Origin: Cohaesibacter celericrescens
GTDB lineage: Bacteria; Pseudomonadota; Alphaproteobacteria; Rhizobiales; Cohaesibacteraceae
Assembly: GCF_002866925.1 (NCBI RefSeq)
Contig: NZ_PKUQ01000016.1
Coordinates: forward strand, 1 to 64,000
Reading direction: 5' to 3'
DNA length: 64,000 bases
Shown here: positions 3,269-11,281 of the stretch, in pieces
How positions within the stretch are numbered: position 1 is the stretch's first letter
Layout: each line of letters begins with the position of its first letter
The notes under the pieces: model-generated
What the model was told of the DNA's origin: nothing
Seen by the model: the letters and a program-made list of their open reading frames with translations, nothing else
The model's database searches: none
Position numbers and translations under genes: made by a program

Positions 3269-3632
3269 TGAGATTTTCTCACTATTTGCCAAGTGATCGC
3301 CCGAGTTTCAAATGCGACCTGCATCCAAAATGCTCGTTTGCAGTGGTATTCTTTTGGGTAATATCGCCTTTCGCAGATAATACTTCGTTAGTGCTCCATA
3401 AAATCGGATTTCAGGGTTTATACTTACTTACCGCTGTTCGATTTCGCGATGCCTAATCGGAAGGGCTCATCGTCTGTGCGGCCCTGATTCTCAGTTTTTT
3501 GTAATGAGGAAAGAAACCCGCTCGCATGTCGGCGCGGCAAGGGCGCGCTGGGGGGCGAATTTTTCAGGCGATGCAGTCGGCTTTTGAGGGGATTTGATTG
3601 CTAAATACGGCTTGATGGGGTCGATGTTTGGT
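3269..3632. other. Intergenic gap, nothing recognised
   Basis: About 360 bases between two minus-strand genes, containing the promoter region of the EAL gene and the 3' flank of the lacI-type gene. I see no gene, no strong hairpin with a T-run and no repeat. Short frames on both strands lack ribosome sites. Confidence 0.4.
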
Positions 3633-4682
3633 CTACAGGGTTTTGGAAGGGTGGGGTGCGGTGGTTTCCCGATCAATGAAGCGAACGCCAAGGCTGAGGC
3701 GGCGGGCGCTTTTGGGCTCGTTTTGTGCTTGTTCCAATAGCAATTGGACTGCCTGATAGGCCATTTCCGGGCCATCAATTTCCATTGTGCTAAGGGGGGG
3801 AGAGGCGTGCGCACCGAGTGTCAAGCCGTCAAAGCCAACCACTGAGATGTCGTTTGGGACAGTGAGACCTATGGTGGTGATCGCACGTATAACGCCCAAG
3901 GCTACCATGTCGTTGGCGCAAAAAATTGCAGTGGGCCTTGGATTGCTGTTTTTAAGGAAGCCAGCCACAACATCACAGCATGCCATGCTGAGTTGATCGG
4001 GGGAGCCGACATCACAGATATGGCGTTGTTTGGAAAAGTCCAAACCCGCATCTTCCATTGCTTCGCGAAACCCCATCATGCGCCGTTTGAGGGATTCACG
4101 ATACAGATGGGTGACATGAAGTATTTCAGTGTGTCCGAGTTCGAGAAGCCTGCGTGTGACGTCTCTACCGCCAAAATAGTTGTCTGGGGAAACACTGGAA
4201 AGATTCATGTGTGTATCCATGCCGTTGACAAGGACGGCAGGGCGGCCAATGCTACGCACAGCGTCGATGACTGCGGTGTCGTCCAATCCCACAAGGAAAA
4301 TCGCGTCGGCGGCAGAAGAAAGCAATCGGCTGAAATCGCGATGCGCAATGTCTCTAGGGGTGAATATTGCGAGATCGATGTCTATTTTTTCTGCCCGAGC
4401 ATTTTGCAGAATCGCGTCTATAATTTGTCCATAGAAAGCGTCGTTGGATACATATCTGTCCATCGTTGCGACGACAGCAGACCGAATGCGCCCCGTGGCA
4501 GCAGCCCCCCGTCCGCTGATGCCGCTATAGCCAAGTTCTTCGGCTATTTTTGCAACCAAAGCACGATTGGCGGCGCTGACGCCGCCTCTATTATTGAAAA
4601 CCTTGGACACGGCTGCTACCGAAAGACCGGCCGCGGCAGCCACATCTTTCAATGTCGGTGTGGTTTGCGATTTTTTGTCCAT
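3633..4682 (-). CDS. LacI-family transcriptional regulator of the adjacent uronide locus
   Basis: This 349-residue LacI/GalR-type repressor has an N-terminal helix-turn-helix (about residues 9-32, [20 protein letters not shown]) and a periplasmic-binding-protein-like effector domain (about 70-340) with typical [14 protein letters not shown] and DISVVGFDG motifs. The ATG at 4682 has GGAGAAG eight bases upstream; a GTG five codons earlier would overlap that site. It lies 81 bases downstream of the GH88 gene on the same strand, and a candidate operator sits in that gap, suggesting autoregulation. By context the inducer is probably a uronic acid or unsaturated disaccharide product; that is inference. 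Confidence 0.93.
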
Positions 4683-4718
4683 AGGTGTCTTCTCCACGGT
4701 GTCGACATATTTCGTAGG

Positions 4719-4738
4719 TCAACGAAAGTTTCGTCATG
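4719..4738. promoter_or_regulatory. Candidate LacI-type operator upstream of the regulator gene
   Basis: Centred on a perfect odd-length palindrome, ACGAAA-G-TTTCGT (4722-4734), in the 81-base gap between the GH88 stop and the lacI start. The 15 bases at 4722-4736 match 13 of 15 positions of the site at 5994-6008 in the GH88/dctP divergent promoter. The recurrence next to both transcription units makes it the best candidate for the binding site of the adjacent LacI-family protein. Confidence 0.55.
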
Positions 4739-4763
4739 TGGTTATATGGAAGCGTCGACACAA

Positions 4764-5948
4764 TTACCAGAAAAATTGCGTATGACCTTGCGAGCGCATC
4801 AAGGCTTCTATGAAATAGTAGTCTCCATAGGGCAACATGGCATCACAACGCCCTGCAGGAACATGGGCTGCACCATGGGCCAGTAATCCTTGTGCGCCTT
4901 CTGTTGTGGTGAGGTCACAGGTTTCAAGCAATCCATCCAATAACCGGTTGCCAAAAGCTCTCCAATGGTCAGATTCTTCATTTGGAATATCTTGATCCGA
5001 CAGCAAATAGAGACCTGCGGCCATTACGGCGGCGGCTGAACTGTCAAGATGAGGGGTCTCATGAGAGGCTAATGAAAAATCCCAAACCGGTACTGAGTCT
5101 GTGCCGAGCAGTGCTTCGGCCTTGGAGCAAACACGGCGTGCCATATCCAACATGTGTTTGTCGCCTGTATAGGCATAGCACTGCGTGAAACCATGCATCA
5201 GCCATGCCTGTCCGCGCGCCCAACATGAATTGTCAGCATACCCCTGATGGGTTTCACCACGCATTGGCTCACCTGTTGCGGGGTCAAATAGATAGGTGTG
5301 GAAGGTGGTGTCGTCGGCGCGCACCAGATGATCAGCGGATGTCTGGGCATGTATCTGTGCTATGTCACGATAGTCCGCGATGCCTGTTTCCTTGTGGGCC
5401 CAATGCAACAAAGCCAAGTTTTGGATCGTATCAGCAATCATGCGGCCATTTGTGAACTTGGCCCGTTCGGGGTCGTTTGCACCAAAGGGCGACCAAGCTT
5501 GAATATAGCCGCCTTCCGGGCGAAAACGGGATATCAGCGCAAATGCTGCAGAAAGTCCCATGTCACGGGCTTCTTTGTCGCCGGTCATCAGCCAGTCTGC
5601 AACGGAGTGTAGCGAGAACTGGAACCCTAGATCATGGTCTCGGAAACGGTGATTTTCTAATATTTTGCGATATTCCGGACGGCGTGCTTGTGCTGCATTG
5701 CGAAAGGCAGCATCTCCGGTGAGTTGATAGGCCAGCCAATATTGTCCGGATTGAAAGCCCATCACCCAGTCGGGGCCGTCACAATAAATCCACTTGTTGC
5801 CATCCGTGCCTATTTTGGGATTGCGCAAACCAATCGTTGCCATTTGCTCGTGCAGTCGGTCCACACATCGCTTTAAGGCCCGATCGTACCTGTCTTCAGT
5901 ATGCACTGATAGCTCTTGTGCAAAATATGGATTGTTGAGCCCGTTCAT
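4764..5948 (-). CDS. GH88 unsaturated glucuronyl hydrolase
   Basis: This 394-residue cytoplasmic glycoside hydrolase of family 88 has no signal peptide. Enzymes of this family hydrate the double bond of the 4,5-unsaturated uronic acid left at the non-reducing end by polysaccharide lyases, which releases the sugar. DHDLGF at 104-109 and the aspartate in IADTIQN (D173) sit where the two key acidic residues of the family are expected; WARGQAW (243-249), DSSAAA and the C-terminal LPYGDYYFIEAL also match. The ATG at 5948 has GGAG nine bases upstream; a TTG five codons earlier lacks one. It diverges from the TRAP transporter genes. No polysaccharide lyase is seen, so the substrate is probably supplied from outside. 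Exact specificity is unknown. Confidence 0.9.
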   Translation of the reverse strand: MNGLNNPYFAQELSVHTEDRYDRALKRCVDRLHEQMATIGLRNPKIGTDGNKWIYCDGPDWVMGFQSGQYWLAYQLTGDAAFRNAAQARRPEYRKILENHRFRDHDLGFQFSLHSVADWLMTGDKEARDMGLSAAFALISRFRPEGGYIQAWSPFGANDPERAKFTNGRMIADTIQNLALLHWAHKETGIADYRDIAQIHAQTSADHLVRADDTTFHTYLFDPATGEPMRGETHQGYADNSCWARGQAWLMHGFTQCYAYTGDKHMLDMARRVCSKAEALLGTDSVPVWDFSLASHETPHLDSSAAAVMAAGLYLLSDQDIPNEESDHWRAFGNRLLDGLLETCDLTTTEGAQGLLAHGAAHVPAGRCDAMLPYGDYYFIEALMRSQGHTQFFW

Positions 5949-6231
5949 ATCAGAAATCTCCAAAACTGTCTGTTGGGAGTATTTTCGTAAAAAAAGAAAA
6001 TTTCGTCAATAGAGAAAATTTATGTTGACGTTTCATCTGTGCAGAGTTTAGATTTGAGACAATCTGCTAAACGGATCACGGGGTGATATTGGCGGATTGT
6101 GAGGGCAAATAATGGTGCTTATTATATGAAATGTGATGCTAGAGACTTGGGTGAATAATGCTTTGTCTTTGCTGTTGCACGCGCCAAATTGTTCCCGATC
6201 AGAAATTTACAGTCGTAAAGGGTAGGAAAAA
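5949..6231. promoter_or_regulatory. Divergent promoter region of GH88 and dctP with operator candidate
   Basis: This gap carries the promoters of two divergent units. AAGAAAATTTCGTCA at 5994-6008 matches the palindrome before lacI at 13 of 15 bases. A further half-site pair, CGTCAA (6004-6009) and TTGACG (6025-6030), forms an inverted repeat. A single bound repressor here could control hydrolase and transporter together. I did not find an unambiguous -35/-10 pair. Confidence 0.5.
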
Positions 6232-7221
6232 ATGAAAGTTTCGCGAAAAATCTTGAGCTTGGCTTGTGTGTTGGCCGTTATGTCTACTGGTGCGATGGCA
6301 AAAACCTATAAGATCGCGACCAATGTGCAGGAAAAAAGCACAGCAGGCGAAATGATCTCGGAATTTGCCAAATCGGTGGCGGAGAAAACTGACGGTCGCG
6401 TCAAGTTCAAAGTCTTTTCAAACGGCGTTTTGGGTGATCAACTGGACTATTTCCAGCAAATCCAAAAAGGTGTGGTGGATGTTGGGTTGGTCAACAGCGC
6501 TGCTCTGGAAAATGTGATCCCAGCCTATGGCGTCGTGAACCTTCCTTACGTGTTCCGGTCTTCAGAGGAATATGGTAAGGTCATGGCCGATGCCGGTGTT
6601 CGTGCGGCTTTGTTCGATGCGGCTGCCAAGCATAATTTTGCGCCTCTCGGTTTCTTGTCCAGTGGCTTCCGTTCGCTGTATGTGACCACTCCAATCAACA
6701 GTGTGGCTGATATCAAGGGTAAAAAACTGCGCACCATGAGCAGTGAAACCTATATCGACATGCTCTCCCGCTTCGGTGCGGTTCCAACGCCTCTTTCCTT
6801 CGGTGAACTTTATTCCGCTATGCAACAGGGTGTTGTTGATGGTGCCGAGGGTGGTTTGGCCGGTCTGTGGTCCGCGAAATTTGGTGAAGTTGCCAAATAT
6901 GCGCTGAAAACCGAACAGACACGTCTGACCGATTTTGTGGTCACCAGCTTGGAATTCCAGAAAAGCGTTTCTGCAGAAGACCTCGAAACCATCAACGAGA
7001 TTTTTGCTGAGATTTCCAAACGTTCAATTGAATGGGCCGATGCCAGTGAAGCGCGTGACCTGAAGTTGGCCGTTGACAAAATGGGCGTCACCGTGGTGGA
7101 AATCGATAAAGGTCCTTTGATGGAATCTGTCGTGCCTATGTATAAAGATGCTATGAAAGATGCTGACAAAGCTGCGCTTTTGGGTGCGATCTTTAAAATT
7201 GAAGGCCGGACCTTCGACTAA
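6232..7221 (+). CDS. TRAP transporter substrate-binding protein, DctP family
   Basis: This 329-residue periplasmic binding protein has a signal peptide ending after AMA (residues 21-23). Such proteins deliver carboxylate-bearing ligands to a DctQM permease driven by the sodium gradient. The conserved arginines in GFRSLY (R147) and GKKLRTM (R167), then PTPLSFGELYSAMQQGVVDG, are the family hallmark; the R167 position normally pairs with the ligand carboxylate. The start has a purine-rich site (GGTAGGAAAAA). It is followed after 142 bases by the fused permease gene, with a strong hairpin between them. Context with GH88 suggests a uronate-containing mono- or disaccharide ligand; this is inference. 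Confidence 0.93.
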   Translation: MKVSRKILSLACVLAVMSTGAMAKTYKIATNVQEKSTAGEMISEFAKSVAEKTDGRVKFKVFSNGVLGDQLDYFQQIQKGVVDVGLVNSAALENVIPAYGVVNLPYVFRSSEEYGKVMADAGVRAALFDAAAKHNFAPLGFLSSGFRSLYVTTPINSVADIKGKKLRTMSSETYIDMLSRFGAVPTPLSFGELYSAMQQGVVDGAEGGLAGLWSAKFGEVAKYALKTEQTRLTDFVVTSLEFQKSVSAEDLETINEIFAEISKRSIEWADASEARDLKLAVDKMGVTVVEIDKGPLMESVVPMYKDAMKDADKAALLGAIFKIEGRTFD

Positions 7222-7277
7222 GGTTTAGCCAGAGGACTGACCAGTTATTACACTGGGATTTCAGCTGGAAACCAATT

Positions 7278-7301
7278 TGAGGCGGCCGATTGGCCGCCTC
7301 A
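7278..7301 (+). other. Intercistronic hairpin between dctP and dctQM
   Basis: A perfect 10-bp stem, TGAGGCGGCC (7278-7287) and GGCCGCCTCA (7292-7301), closed by GATT. No T-run follows, so it is not a classic terminator. Such elements often protect the upstream message and yield more binding protein than permease; that role is inferred from position. Confidence 0.7.
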
Positions 7302-7363
7302 TCCCTCCACATATATGGTCGGGGTGAAGACTGCGCTTGCCCCTGTTTGTCGGGAAGACCAAG

Positions 7364-9307
7364 ATGCAAAACAAGACCAAATCCGCCCCTGAAACCACTT
7401 CGCAAAATCACGATTTGGCAGACAATGCCGTTACCGTGCCCGGTTATGGGTTGTTGACAAAAAGCGTTGGAGTGGTGCTTGCCGTCCTTCTGGGCTTCAT
7501 GGCCATTCTGATTTCTTATCAGGTGATAGCGCGCTATTTCTTTAATGCCCCTAGCAGCCTATCCGTCGAAATGTTGCGTTTCTCTCTGATCTGGCTTGGT
7601 GTTCTGGGGTCAGCATATTGCTTTATGCTCAACAAGCACCTCAATTTGCCTTTGTTGGTTGACGCTTTGAAGCCGAAGAACCGTGATCGCCTTAAGTTGT
7701 TCAATGCCTCTTTGACGCTGTTGTTTGGTGCTTTGTTGGCGTGGGGTGGTTTTAATTCTATCCTTGCCAATGCGCTGACCAGAACGCCGATGCTGCATCT
7801 TTCAATGGGCACTTTGCAGAGTGTGCTGCTGATTGCCGGCGTATTGATCTGCATTTCTCAGCTTTTGCTGATATATACGTTGTTTAAACAGGGTTCATCC
7901 AAGATTATTGATCTGATCGGGATGGTGGTGTTGTTGTCCTTGGTCCTGTATCTGGCGAGCCTGTTCCGTGCTTCTGAGACATATATGTTCTGGGTTGATG
8001 AGCATCTTGAACTGTTTTCGACTGTTGTATTGTTTGGCACCTTATTTGCCTTGTTGTTCTTGGGCACTTCCATTGCCGTCGGGTTGGCTTTTTCTGGTAT
8101 TCTGACCCTTAGTTTGCAGGTTGATATTTCAGTGCTGTTCTCGACCATGGGCGAGAAATTATTCAGCGGCCTGGATTCTTTCGGATTTCTGGCTCTGCCC
8201 TTCTTTGTGTTGGCCGGTAATATCATGAACCAAGCAGGTATTGCCCGACGGTTGATTGATTTTGCCATGTTGTTTGGCAGACGCATTCCCGGCAGTTTGT
8301 GGCAGACCAATACGTTGGCCAATATGTTGTTTGGTTCACTGTCTGGTTCGGGCATTGCTGCGGCCACTGCAATTGGCGGTATCGTCTCGCCGATCGCCAA
8401 AGAAGAAAAATATGATATGGCCATAACCACTGCGGTCAATGCGGCTTCCGCTCCTTGCGGTATGCTCATTCCGCCGTCCGGTGCGCTGATTGTCTATTCC
8501 TTGATTACCGGTGGCAGTGCCTCAATTGTTGCTCTGTTTCTGGCTGGTTATGTTCCGGGGATGATCATGGGTGTCAGCGTTATGGCAGTTGCCTATATCT
8601 ATGCAAAAAATCGGAACTATTCAGTTGATAAAAGCCCCTTCCGTATGAGCGAAATGGCGCGTTCTTTTGCGATGGCGGCGCCGAGTTTGCTCCTGGTTGT
8701 TGTGGTGATTGGCGGTATTATTTTTGGTGTCTTCACCGCGACCGAAGGCTCTGGCATTGCGGTATTCTATTCCTTGGTGCTGGCATTGGTCTATCGTCGG
8801 TTGACGCCTCAGGTGCTTTATAAAGTCTTGTTGGATACCGCGGCGGCTACAGGTGTCATCCTGTTTCTGATTGCCTGCTCCAACCTGATGAGTTGGAGCA
8901 TGACCTTTGCGAGCATTCCCGATACGATTGGCGAGTTCCTGACCAGTCTATCAAACAACAAATATGTTATCTTGCTGCTGATCAACATCACATTGTTGGT
9001 GATTGGGGTGTTCATGGATATGGCTCCCGCACAGCTGATTTTCACTCCAATTTTCTTCCCGGTGGTAATGGAGCTTGGTGTGGATCCTGTGCATTTTGGT
9101 ATCATCATGGTCTACAATCTGTCGATGGGCGTGGTGACACCTCCGGTTGGCACCGTGTTGTTTGTTTCCTGTAGTGTGTCCGGAGAGAAAATCACGAAGG
9201 TAATACGGCCCTTGTTGCCTATCTTCTCGGTGCAGATTGCAGGTTTGCTCCTGATTACCTTTATTCCAGCTTTGTCCTTGACGTTGCCTCGCTTGTTTGG
9301 CGTCTAG
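7364..9307 (+). CDS. Fused TRAP transporter permease, DctQ-DctM
   Basis: This 647-residue integral membrane protein joins both TRAP permease subunits. The small four-helix DctQ part covers about residues 30-180, a linking helix follows, and the large DctM part with many helices covers about 215-647, including the conserved GSLSGSGIAAATAIGG and the helix pairs ending in MAPAQLIFTP and NLSMGVVTPPVGTV. It imports the DctP-bound ligand with sodium. The ATG at 7364 follows GGGAAG; a TTG nine codons earlier is a weaker choice. QM fusions are well known in the family. Its only obvious partner is the adjacent dctP. Confidence 0.93.
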   Translation: MQNKTKSAPETTSQNHDLADNAVTVPGYGLLTKSVGVVLAVLLGFMAILISYQVIARYFFNAPSSLSVEMLRFSLIWLGVLGSAYCFMLNKHLNLPLLVDALKPKNRDRLKLFNASLTLLFGALLAWGGFNSILANALTRTPMLHLSMGTLQSVLLIAGVLICISQLLLIYTLFKQGSSKIIDLIGMVVLLSLVLYLASLFRASETYMFWVDEHLELFSTVVLFGTLFALLFLGTSIAVGLAFSGILTLSLQVDISVLFSTMGEKLFSGLDSFGFLALPFFVLAGNIMNQAGIARRLIDFAMLFGRRIPGSLWQTNTLANMLFGSLSGSGIAAATAIGGIVSPIAKEEKYDMAITTAVNAASAPCGMLIPPSGALIVYSLITGGSASIVALFLAGYVPGMIMGVSVMAVAYIYAKNRNYSVDKSPFRMSEMARSFAMAAPSLLLVVVVIGGIIFGVFTATEGSGIAVFYSLVLALVYRRLTPQVLYKVLLDTAAATGVILFLIACSNLMSWSMTFASIPDTIGEFLTSLSNNKYVILLLINITLLVIGVFMDMAPAQLIFTPIFFPVVMELGVDPVHFGIIMVYNLSMGVVTPPVGTVLFVSCSVSGEKITKVIRPLLPIFSVQIAGLLLITFIPALSLTLPRLFGV

Positions 9308-9316
9308 TCTGGACAG

Positions 9317-9353
9317 CCTGCGTCAGTTTTCCTCCCGCTGGCGCAGGTTTTTT
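9317..9353 (+). terminator. Rho-independent terminator after the TRAP permease gene
   Basis: The stem CCTGCGTCAG (9317-9326) pairs with CTGGCGCAGG (9338-9347), with one G-T wobble, and is followed directly by TTTTTT. It lies ten bases after the dctQM stop and would reduce read-through into the DUF2264 gene. Confidence 0.8.
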
Positions 9354-9358
9354 CAATA

Positions 9359-9383
9359 GGGCTCGTCTTTTGTTGGCGAGCCC
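9359..9383 (+). other. Second hairpin before the DUF2264 gene
   Basis: A 7-bp perfect stem GGGCTCG (9359-9365) and CGAGCCC (9377-9383) immediately follows the terminator. No T-run follows it. The tandem arrangement suggests partial attenuation of the last gene of the operon, or a processing site; function is inferred. Confidence 0.45.
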
Positions 9384-9412
9384 GATTGTCTTCAATTTAT
9401 GGATAGCTTGTG

Positions 9413-11197
9413 ATGTCTCTTCGCCTTGACGGATTTTCCGATAACCCAATGCGATCCCGTGCCGATTTTCAAGATGCGGCCCGTGCTCTGAATAAGCCGT
9501 TGATACCCTTTCTGGATCGCGGTGGGGCGGCTCTCGATTTGGAAGAGGGGGCGGCGAAATTTGATATGCGGGCCAGCTCACTGGAAGGTGTTGTCCGGCC
9601 ATTGTGGGGTTTGGTGCCATTGGCTTTGGGCGGGGGAGCTTTTTCGCATTGGCCGTTGTTTCAACGCGCCATCTGTGAAGGCGTTGATCCTGAGCATCCC
9701 CGTTTTTGGGGGGCTATTGGCGATGTAGATCAACGGGCCGTGGAAATGGCTGCCATCGGCTTTTTGTTGGCGGCGTTGCCCAACGAAGGCTGGGACCAGT
9801 TGCCCGAAACCTCGCAAGAACATTTGGTAAACTGGCTTTCTGCTATGCAAAAAGTCCCGATGTCGCAAAACAACTGGCTGTTTTTTACGGTGCTTGTGCA
9901 GCAGGGGCTGAAGCGGATCGGGCGGGGTGATATCGTTGATCTAGCACTAGAGCACAAACATCTGCAACAGCTGGCCGATTGGTATCGCGGCGATGGCTGG
10001 TATGGCGATGGCGGCAGCAAAGCGGTTGACCATTATGGCGGCTTTGCAATGCATTTTTATGGGATGCTTTATGGCTGGCTGAAAGGTGATCAGCTAGATG
10101 AATTCTCGGTACTGTTTCGCAAGCGGGCAAGTGAGTTTGCTGTTCCCTTTAGTCACTGGTTTGCTGATAATGGTGAAGCAATGATACAGGGGCGGTCGCT
10201 GACCTATCGGTTCGCAACAGCGGCTTATTGGGGCATGCTGGCTGTATCGGGCGAACGTCCATTGTCCATTGGTCAGATAAAGGGGGTGTGGGCGCGGCAA
10301 TTGCGTGTCTGGCGTGACCGTCCGATCTTTCGGTCTGATGGGATTCTGTCTCGCGGTTTTGCCTATCCCAGCTTGATGGTGTGTGAGGATTATAATTCTC
10401 CCACCTCTCCCTATTGGGCCATGAAAGCCTTTATGCCACTGGCGCTGGATGAGGCTTCTGACTTCTGGCAGGCGGATGAAGAGCCATTGGATGACCTTCG
10501 CTCTGTCTATGCTATGCCGCATGCGGATAGTTTGGTTCAGCGCGTTGAGGGCCATGCTATTTCCCATTTTGCAGCTCCAATTCACACATGGCTGCAAATG
10601 GATAAATACAACAAATTTGCCTACTCAACGGTCTGTGGATTTGATGTTGGCAGTTTGCAATATGCCAATATGGGCATATTTGGCGACAACTTGCTGGCAT
10701 TCAGTTTTGACGACGGCGCAAACTGGCAAATGCGTCAGAAAAATCTCGATGTTTGTGTGGCTGATGACAATTTGACTGTGCGTTGGTCGACGGGTGCCTT
10801 GGAGGTTGAAACCAAAATTGAGGTTGTTGGGGATGGCCTGTTCACACGCAGCCATGCCTTTGAACTTTCGGTTCCCACACAGGTGGTTGAGACCGGCTTT
10901 GCGGTCAATCAGTGGTATCGCGAGGCTGAGCGCCTTGACCCTGCCGATGCACATCAGGCGATCCTTTTGAATGGTGAAAACGCTCTGTCAGGGATCTTGC
11001 CGATGGATGATCTACCGCGTCAATCGATTGCCTGCGGACGGGTGAATAGCAATATGCTGTCGCCGCGGACGTTGGTGCCCGGCTTTAGCCTATCTCTGGC
11101 TGCTGGAAACCATCAAATCAAGCACGGGTTTTGGTTGTCACCGGACAAGAGAGAGGAAAAATGCGAGGCCTTTTTGGCTTTGCAGAAAGGGCATTGA
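9413..11197 (+). CDS. DUF2264 domain protein, probable glycoside-processing enzyme
   Basis: This 594-residue protein has no signal peptide. The N-terminal two thirds match the DUF2264 family: the start RLDGFSDNPMRSRADFQD, then SQNNWLFFTVLVQQGL, WYRGDGWYGDGG, VDHYGGFAMHFYG and SPYWAMKAFMPLAL. These aromatic- and Asp-rich segments resemble an alpha/alpha-barrel. I recall that CAZy treats relatives as a glucuronidase-type family (GH154), but cannot verify it here. Beside GH88 and a TRAP transporter it probably handles a uronic-acid glycoside in the cytoplasm. The ATG at 9413 is preceded by GGAT; the GTG directly before it is an alternative. Confidence 0.8.
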   Translation: MSLRLDGFSDNPMRSRADFQDAARALNKPLIPFLDRGGAALDLEEGAAKFDMRASSLEGVVRPLWGLVPLALGGGAFSHWPLFQRAICEGVDPEHPRFWGAIGDVDQRAVEMAAIGFLLAALPNEGWDQLPETSQEHLVNWLSAMQKVPMSQNNWLFFTVLVQQGLKRIGRGDIVDLALEHKHLQQLADWYRGDGWYGDGGSKAVDHYGGFAMHFYGMLYGWLKGDQLDEFSVLFRKRASEFAVPFSHWFADNGEAMIQGRSLTYRFATAAYWGMLAVSGERPLSIGQIKGVWARQLRVWRDRPIFRSDGILSRGFAYPSLMVCEDYNSPTSPYWAMKAFMPLALDEASDFWQADEEPLDDLRSVYAMPHADSLVQRVEGHAISHFAAPIHTWLQMDKYNKFAYSTVCGFDVGSLQYANMGIFGDNLLAFSFDDGANWQMRQKNLDVCVADDNLTVRWSTGALEVETKIEVVGDGLFTRSHAFELSVPTQVVETGFAVNQWYREAERLDPADAHQAILLNGENALSGILPMDDLPRQSIACGRVNSNMLSPRTLVPGFSLSLAAGNHQIKHGFWLSPDKREEKCEAFLALQKGH

Positions 11198-11246
11198 CCT
11201 GAATGGTTTGAAGAATCACGTTTACTGTTTGGCTGAAATCTTGTTT

Positions 11247-11281
11247 ACGGTTCAAATGCATAGCATTTGAACCGTTTTCTT
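11247..11281 (+). terminator. Strong terminator ending the TRAP/DUF2264 unit
   Basis: A perfect 13-bp stem, ACGGTTCAAATGC (11247-11259) and GCATTTGAACCGT (11263-11275), has a 3-base loop and is followed by TTTCTTT. It lies about 50 bases past the DUF2264 stop and separates the uronide locus from mgtE. Confidence 0.85.

Follow-up and report, generated by a model that had tools for sequence, protein, structure and literature searches.

The locus considered here occupies positions 3633 to 11281 of a 64,000-nucleotide stretch of Cohaesibacter celericrescens DNA (contig NZ_PKUQ01000016.1; the whole stretch is called the window) and combines a LacI-family regulator, a GH88 hydrolase, a tripartite ATP-independent periplasmic (TRAP) transporter and a DUF2264 protein. 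The five genes lie where the first-pass annotation had placed them, the open reading frame (ORF) listing and the Pfam matches (LacI, GH88, DctP, DctQ/DctM and DUF2264) being in agreement. The GH88 and lacI genes are transcribed leftwards, while dctP, dctQM and the DUF2264 gene are transcribed rightwards; Pfam detects all the TRAP components DctP, DctQ and DctM, with Q and M fused. As judged by eye, a signal peptide is present at the start of DctP and none at the start of the GH88 or the DUF2264 protein. The features are as follows, with likely start codons taken from the ORF translations.

3633..4697, minus strand: LacI-family regulator; likely ATG start at 4682; Pfam LacI 48.8 bits and Peripla_BP_3 115.6 bits
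4722..4734, no strand assigned: candidate LacI operator ACGAAAGTTTCGT upstream of lacI; 0 mismatches to ACGAAANTTTCGT
4764..5963, minus strand: GH88 unsaturated glucuronyl hydrolase, apparently cytoplasmic; likely ATG start at 5948; Pfam GH88, PDB 1vd5
5994..6006, no strand assigned: second candidate LacI operator, within the divergent promoter region of GH88 and dctP; 1 mismatch to ACGAAANTTTCGT
6232..7221, plus strand: DctP, TRAP solute-binding protein; Pfam DctP 221.2 bits
7278..7301, no strand assigned: hairpin between dctP and dctQM; 10-bp perfect inverted repeat
7337..9307, plus strand: fused DctQM TRAP permease in a single ORF; likely ATG at 7364; Pfam DctQ 90.7 bits and DctM 350.9 bits
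9354..9388, no strand assigned: hairpin between dctQM and the DUF2264 gene; 12-bp arms, 92% complementary
9410..11197, plus strand: DUF2264 protein, predicted beta-D-glucuronate (glycoside) dehydratase, apparently cytoplasmic, with a C-terminal beta domain; ATG at 9413
11247..11275, plus strand: candidate intrinsic terminator for the dctP-dctQM-DUF2264 operon, shortly before the end of the interval at 11281; perfectly paired 13-bp arms around a 3-nt loop, then a T-rich tail

Judged from its sequence, the DUF2264 protein is homologous to glucuronate dehydratases and retains their active site, DUF2264 being the former GH154 family. It matches Pfam DUF2264 with 357.2 bits (cut-off 25) and DUF2264_C with 38.7 bits, shows the fold of BcGDH from Bacteroides caccae and keeps all ten of the BcGDH active-site residues taken as reference (E74, R78, N176, N177, W178, F181, Y229, R285, Y289 and Y354); eight of these mapped directly, while E59 and R63 of the window protein were assigned from their spacing and their invariance in the family alignment. 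The dehydratase reaction is thus predicted by analogy with characterized homologues. That the protein might instead be a true glycosidase, a GH154 beta-glucuronidase or a beta-galactosidase acting in parallel with GH88, would accord with earlier reports of such activity for BT_3677 and BD-beta-Gal (as described in PMC12269599). However, in the 2025 study no glycosidase activity was ascribed to BcGDH, the activity of some preparations being inconsistent; dehydratase activity was found for both BcGDH and BT_3677, and none of the structures compared showed an active site like that of a glycosidase (PMC12269599). Together with the conservation of the BcGDH residues in the window protein, this makes a glycosidase very improbable.

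The Pfam match of the GH88 protein is weak (33.7 bits against a cut-off of 26.6). Among solved structures it comes closest to 1vd5, the unsaturated glucuronyl hydrolase of Bacillus (phmmer, E 1.6e-70), and D111 and D178, identical in all 12 aligned sequences, correspond to D88 and D149 of the Bacillus enzyme, which we take to be its catalytic aspartates. The features tested for the dehydratase family are all found, and the locus probably operates like the pair of BcGDH and its GH88 partner.

These observations lead us to propose, with a probability of about two in three, that the locus imports saturated beta-glucuronides through the TRAP transporter and degrades them by DUF2264 dehydration followed by GH88 cleavage, no polysaccharide lyase being needed. 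We infer the ligand, its aglycone, the cellular location of the enzymes, the later steps and the regulation as follows. In the periplasm, DctP would capture small beta-glucuronides, molecules in which a sugar or some other aglycone bears a saturated glucuronate at its non-reducing end; DctQM would then move them across the inner membrane. The cytoplasmic DUF2264 protein, with Y209, R262 and Y266 as predicted catalytic residues, would eliminate water at C4-C5 of the terminal glucuronate, and GH88 would hydrolyse the resulting 4,5-unsaturated glucuronide to 5-keto-4-deoxyuronate and the free aglycone. LacI would repress both divergent operons, and itself, through the ACGAAANTTTCGT sites. Imported saturated beta-glucuronides may suffice because a dehydratase beside GH88 can make the unsaturated residue from a saturated one. 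The first-pass annotation had read the locus as a single uronide unit served by a TRAP transporter and without a lyase of its own; this part is supported, and the unit is conserved in other genomes. That the substrate must be an unsaturated uronide released by the lyases of others is not supported, since a glucuronate dehydratase homologue makes a saturated beta-glucuronide the likely substrate, whose double bond would be made inside the cell. The DUF2264 gene and the apparently missing lyase would then become parts of one complete, testable pathway.

Gene content, active sites and neighbourhood are conserved, and operator-like sites recur at the same places in close relatives. Among 18 genomes of the genus, relatives of the window's GH88 and the DUF2264 family occur in the same six, with seven copies each, paired within about 8 kb; four of these loci are of TRAP type (the window, L024, L025 and L026) and three of ATP-binding cassette (ABC) type with GH2 (L030-L032). 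A scan of named genomes confirmed at least 556 DUF2264 places, of which the best 80 were kept. The ten closest of these 80 (L046-L055) all have GH88, six being of TRAP type (Martelella radicis, M. lutilitoris, Vibrio maerlii, two Mangrovibacter and Paracoccus sediminilitoris) and four of Opp type; among the remaining 70, where some contigs end early, a GH88 match was found in 17 and these TRAP genes in none. In a tree of 59 proteins the clade of the window comprises 14 entries with an SH-aLRT support of 100, ten TRAP and four Opp, all with GH88. Across 397 genomes sampled from the order, 41 places were located in 36 genomes (40 checked by tblastn, plus the window); 15 of these places have GH88 altogether, including all five of TRAP type, and one TRAP locus (L228) was new. 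Fifteen further places from a phylum sample contributed ten with GH88 and no TRAP locus, two lacking a match to the DUF2264 query. The co-occurrence check proposed in the first-pass annotation thus found 11 loci that combine GH88 and DUF2264 with TRAP genes. The GH88 partnership is a property of the window's clade throughout, as sampled, and not of the whole DUF2264 family.

This regular partnership bears on the possibility that the transporter mainly imports unsaturated disaccharides released by the lyases of other organisms, with GH88 as the main enzyme and DUF2264 serving only leftover saturated ends. Systems are described in which GH88 and GH105 act on the products of lyases (PMC12269599, PMC8511951), the B. 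caccae dehydratase works beside a lyase, and a supply from outside would fit the lack of any match to lyase families in a Pfam scan of seven proteins (the five locus proteins plus the adjacent one on either side). An accessory DUF2264 nevertheless predicts loci with GH88 and TRAP genes from which DUF2264 is missing, and none was seen among the seven GH88 places in the genus, where the two families share genomes and copy number; the pairing also holds in 15 of 15 clade loci examined. Conversely, a GH105-like locus on contig C24 of the same assembly, described below, is without DUF2264, as would be expected of an importer of unsaturated sugars. We therefore regard the import of lyase products as unlikely.

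The DUF2264 family has other neighbours elsewhere. Opp-type ABC genes accompany DUF2264 genes with no recognised GH88 in L028, L059, L062, L065, L229-L234 and similar loci. In L030, L031 and L032, from the genus of the window, a MalG-type permease, GH88, MsmK, a solute-binding protein and GH2 lie beside DUF2264; L030 also has a DUF624-like protein.

Among the six PDB relatives closest to DctP are 4x8r and 4n8y, the other four being presumably hexuronate-bound. The ligand is glucuronate in 4x8r and galacturonate in 4n8y, and two arginines and one asparagine are given as the conserved carboxylate contacts of hexuronate-binding TRAP proteins (PMC11668362). DctP keeps the arginines as R147 and R167 but not the asparagine, the corresponding position, equated through alignments of relatives and its distance of 40 residues from the second arginine, being G207; glycine occurs there in 11 of 11 TRAP loci, and the motif at this position is AENN in all five aligned DctP relatives. 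The genome encodes 30 TRAP binding proteins, and in the 22 for which a rough pattern made the motif readable the residue is asparagine in 12, another residue in nine and glycine only in the protein of the window; AENN recurs in three other TRAP proteins of the genome. DctP resembles the hexuronate binders but would not be filed as a plain one, G207 being a hint, not proof, that its ligand is something other than a plain hexuronate. Against this hint, an AENN-type binding protein adjoins the GH2 glucuronidase-like gene on contig C7 of the same assembly, so that AENN alone does not exclude glycosides.

Were the transporter to carry free glucuronate or galacturonate and be merely co-regulated, the substrate of GH88 and DUF2264 entering by another route, the bound sugars of 4x8r and 4n8y would be readily accommodated. 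Free glucuronate, however, requires neither GH88 nor a dehydratase, and the Pfam scan found no isomerase or reductase for free uronates within the locus, whereas a separate TRAP locus in the assembly carries such genes. With the clamp asparagine also missing from DctP in all 11 TRAP loci with GH88 and DUF2264, and AENN present in three other TRAP proteins of the genome, we consider this explanation quite improbable. That a secondary TRAP transporter with a re-shaped DctP (clamp asparagine to glycine) imports whole saturated beta-glucuronides, rather than free uronates, for a lyase-free pathway that turns them into unsaturated glycosides for GH88 in the cytoplasm, as a second glucuronide route beside a TRAP-fed route with a GH2 glucuronidase-like enzyme, we give an even chance. 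If DctP does take whole glycosides, TRAP transporters would count among the saturated-glucuronide uptake systems, and a GH88 gene alone would no longer signal lyase products.

The separate locus lies on contig C7 (L279:1784-15618) and holds genes for a TRAP transporter, a GH2 glucuronidase-like protein, glucuronate isomerase, a fructuronate reductase-like protein, mannonate dehydratase and KDPG aldolase, apparently the classical glucuronide route in the same genome. The TRAP binding protein was recognized by NCBIfam and the permeases by similarity to DctQM of the window; the best NCBIfam model for the GH2 protein is beta-glucuronidase, at 254 bits and thus below its cut-off of 544. A UxuR-like regulator is also encoded there, as is a protein with matches to alpha-glucosidase/xylosidase models. 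On contig C24 (L013:320-9999), TRAP genes, a LacI regulator, a GH105-like hydrolase, a KduI-family gene and a short-chain dehydrogenase/reductase (SDR) form a second unsaturated-uronide locus, in which an 845-aa ORF (3485-6022) has no Pfam match. The genome apparently maintains three TRAP-type uronide loci that differ in their first enzyme.

As to later steps, L025 and L026 have KduI-family genes and an SDR, L054 a KduI-family gene and L050 an SDR with an RpiB/LacAB-type isomerase, the SDRs being labelled KduD-like only because they resemble the SDR that adjoins the KduI-family gene of C24. The genome of the window has four matches to the KduI/IolB family, which does not separate KduI from IolB, and three to the KDPG-aldolase family.

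Several observations weigh against the import and dehydration of saturated beta-glucuronides as proposed here. In the order-wide sample, 26 of the 41 places lack a GH88 match in the stretch fetched, 16 of them having an Opp-type and four a MalG-type ABC gene; one of the 26 also lacks a match to the DUF2264 query. Two of the nearest solved relatives of DctP bind free hexuronates, so that the transporter might carry monosaccharides. BcGDH is slow on its test substrate (PMC12269599), and neither KduI nor KduD is found in the window's own locus. The source genome is 91% complete with 8% contamination, which casts some doubt on small contigs such as C24.

The LacI protein carries a LacI helix-turn-helix and a ligand-binding domain (Pfam), and a LacI-type regulator lies beside 10 of the 11 TRAP loci, with only 21% identity (weak) in L050; in the eleventh, L046, the contig ends inside GH88. 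The palindrome ACGAAANTTTCGT has one exact match in the 64-kb window, that upstream of lacI, and one match with a single mismatch, which lies in the divergent region and overlaps a minus-strand TTGACG that resembles a -35 element. Like sites occur in both the GH88/lacI gap and the divergent region of L024 (1 mismatch each) and L228 (2 mismatches), and, with 2 mismatches, L046 has one in its divergent region and L054 one between lacI and GH88; none was seen at the equivalent places in L025, L026, L048, L050, L051 and L052. The palindromic sites at both promoters are candidate LacI operators.

Uptake of uronides by a TRAP transporter is less odd than the first-pass annotation had held, given the two further TRAP uronide loci in the assembly and the precedent of RhiABC, which we take to be a TRAP transporter. 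BT_3677, the founding GH154 member, belongs to a gut Bacteroides arabinogalactan system rather than to a TRAP locus. RhiABC is described, in the part of the source available, as similar to a C4-dicarboxylate transport system and tentatively as a rhamnogalacturonide transporter (PMC3870299); like the TRAP system of the window it is a proposed importer of uronide oligosaccharides, but of a rhamnogalacturonide system in whose description, to that extent, no dehydratase is mentioned. BT_3677, likened to the window protein by family and description, is also a two-domain member and dehydrates methyl beta-D-glucuronate (PMC12269599). In the chondroitin pathway of B. caccae PUL25 a dehydratase of the same family likewise makes the unsaturated end for GH88 (BcGDH and BcGH88), although this polysaccharide utilization locus, from Bacteroidota, includes a PL35 lyase and GH109, and its dehydratase lacks a second domain (PMC12269599), whereas the locus of the window has TRAP genes, a LacI regulator, a C-terminal domain on the dehydratase and no lyase. 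With the present locus, the dehydratase/GH88 chemistry described in 2025 for gut Bacteroides would reach proteobacterial loci of TRAP type. The ulvan dehydratase P29_PDnc similarly primes its substrate for cutting by an unsaturated uronyl hydrolase, GH105 (PMC8511951), but shows no sequence relationship to the GH154 family, according to PMC12269599. Haloarchaeal hyaluronate/chondroitin loci also unite GH88 with the GH154 dehydratase family, but with ABC uptake genes and a glycosaminoglycan lyase within the locus (PMC13260240). ABC-type loci with both GH88 and DUF2264 differ from that of the window in that ABC genes replace the TRAP genes, GH2 being added in L030-L032; the MalFG type was found in Rhizobium, Roseibium, Paenibacillus and three genomes of the window's genus, and the Opp type in Vibrio and Photobacterium.

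Terminator-like patterns such as that following the DUF2264 gene are common in the stretch, 12 being found against 9.8 expected by chance. The hairpins at 7278-7301 and 9354-9388 perhaps set the ratio of binding protein to permease.
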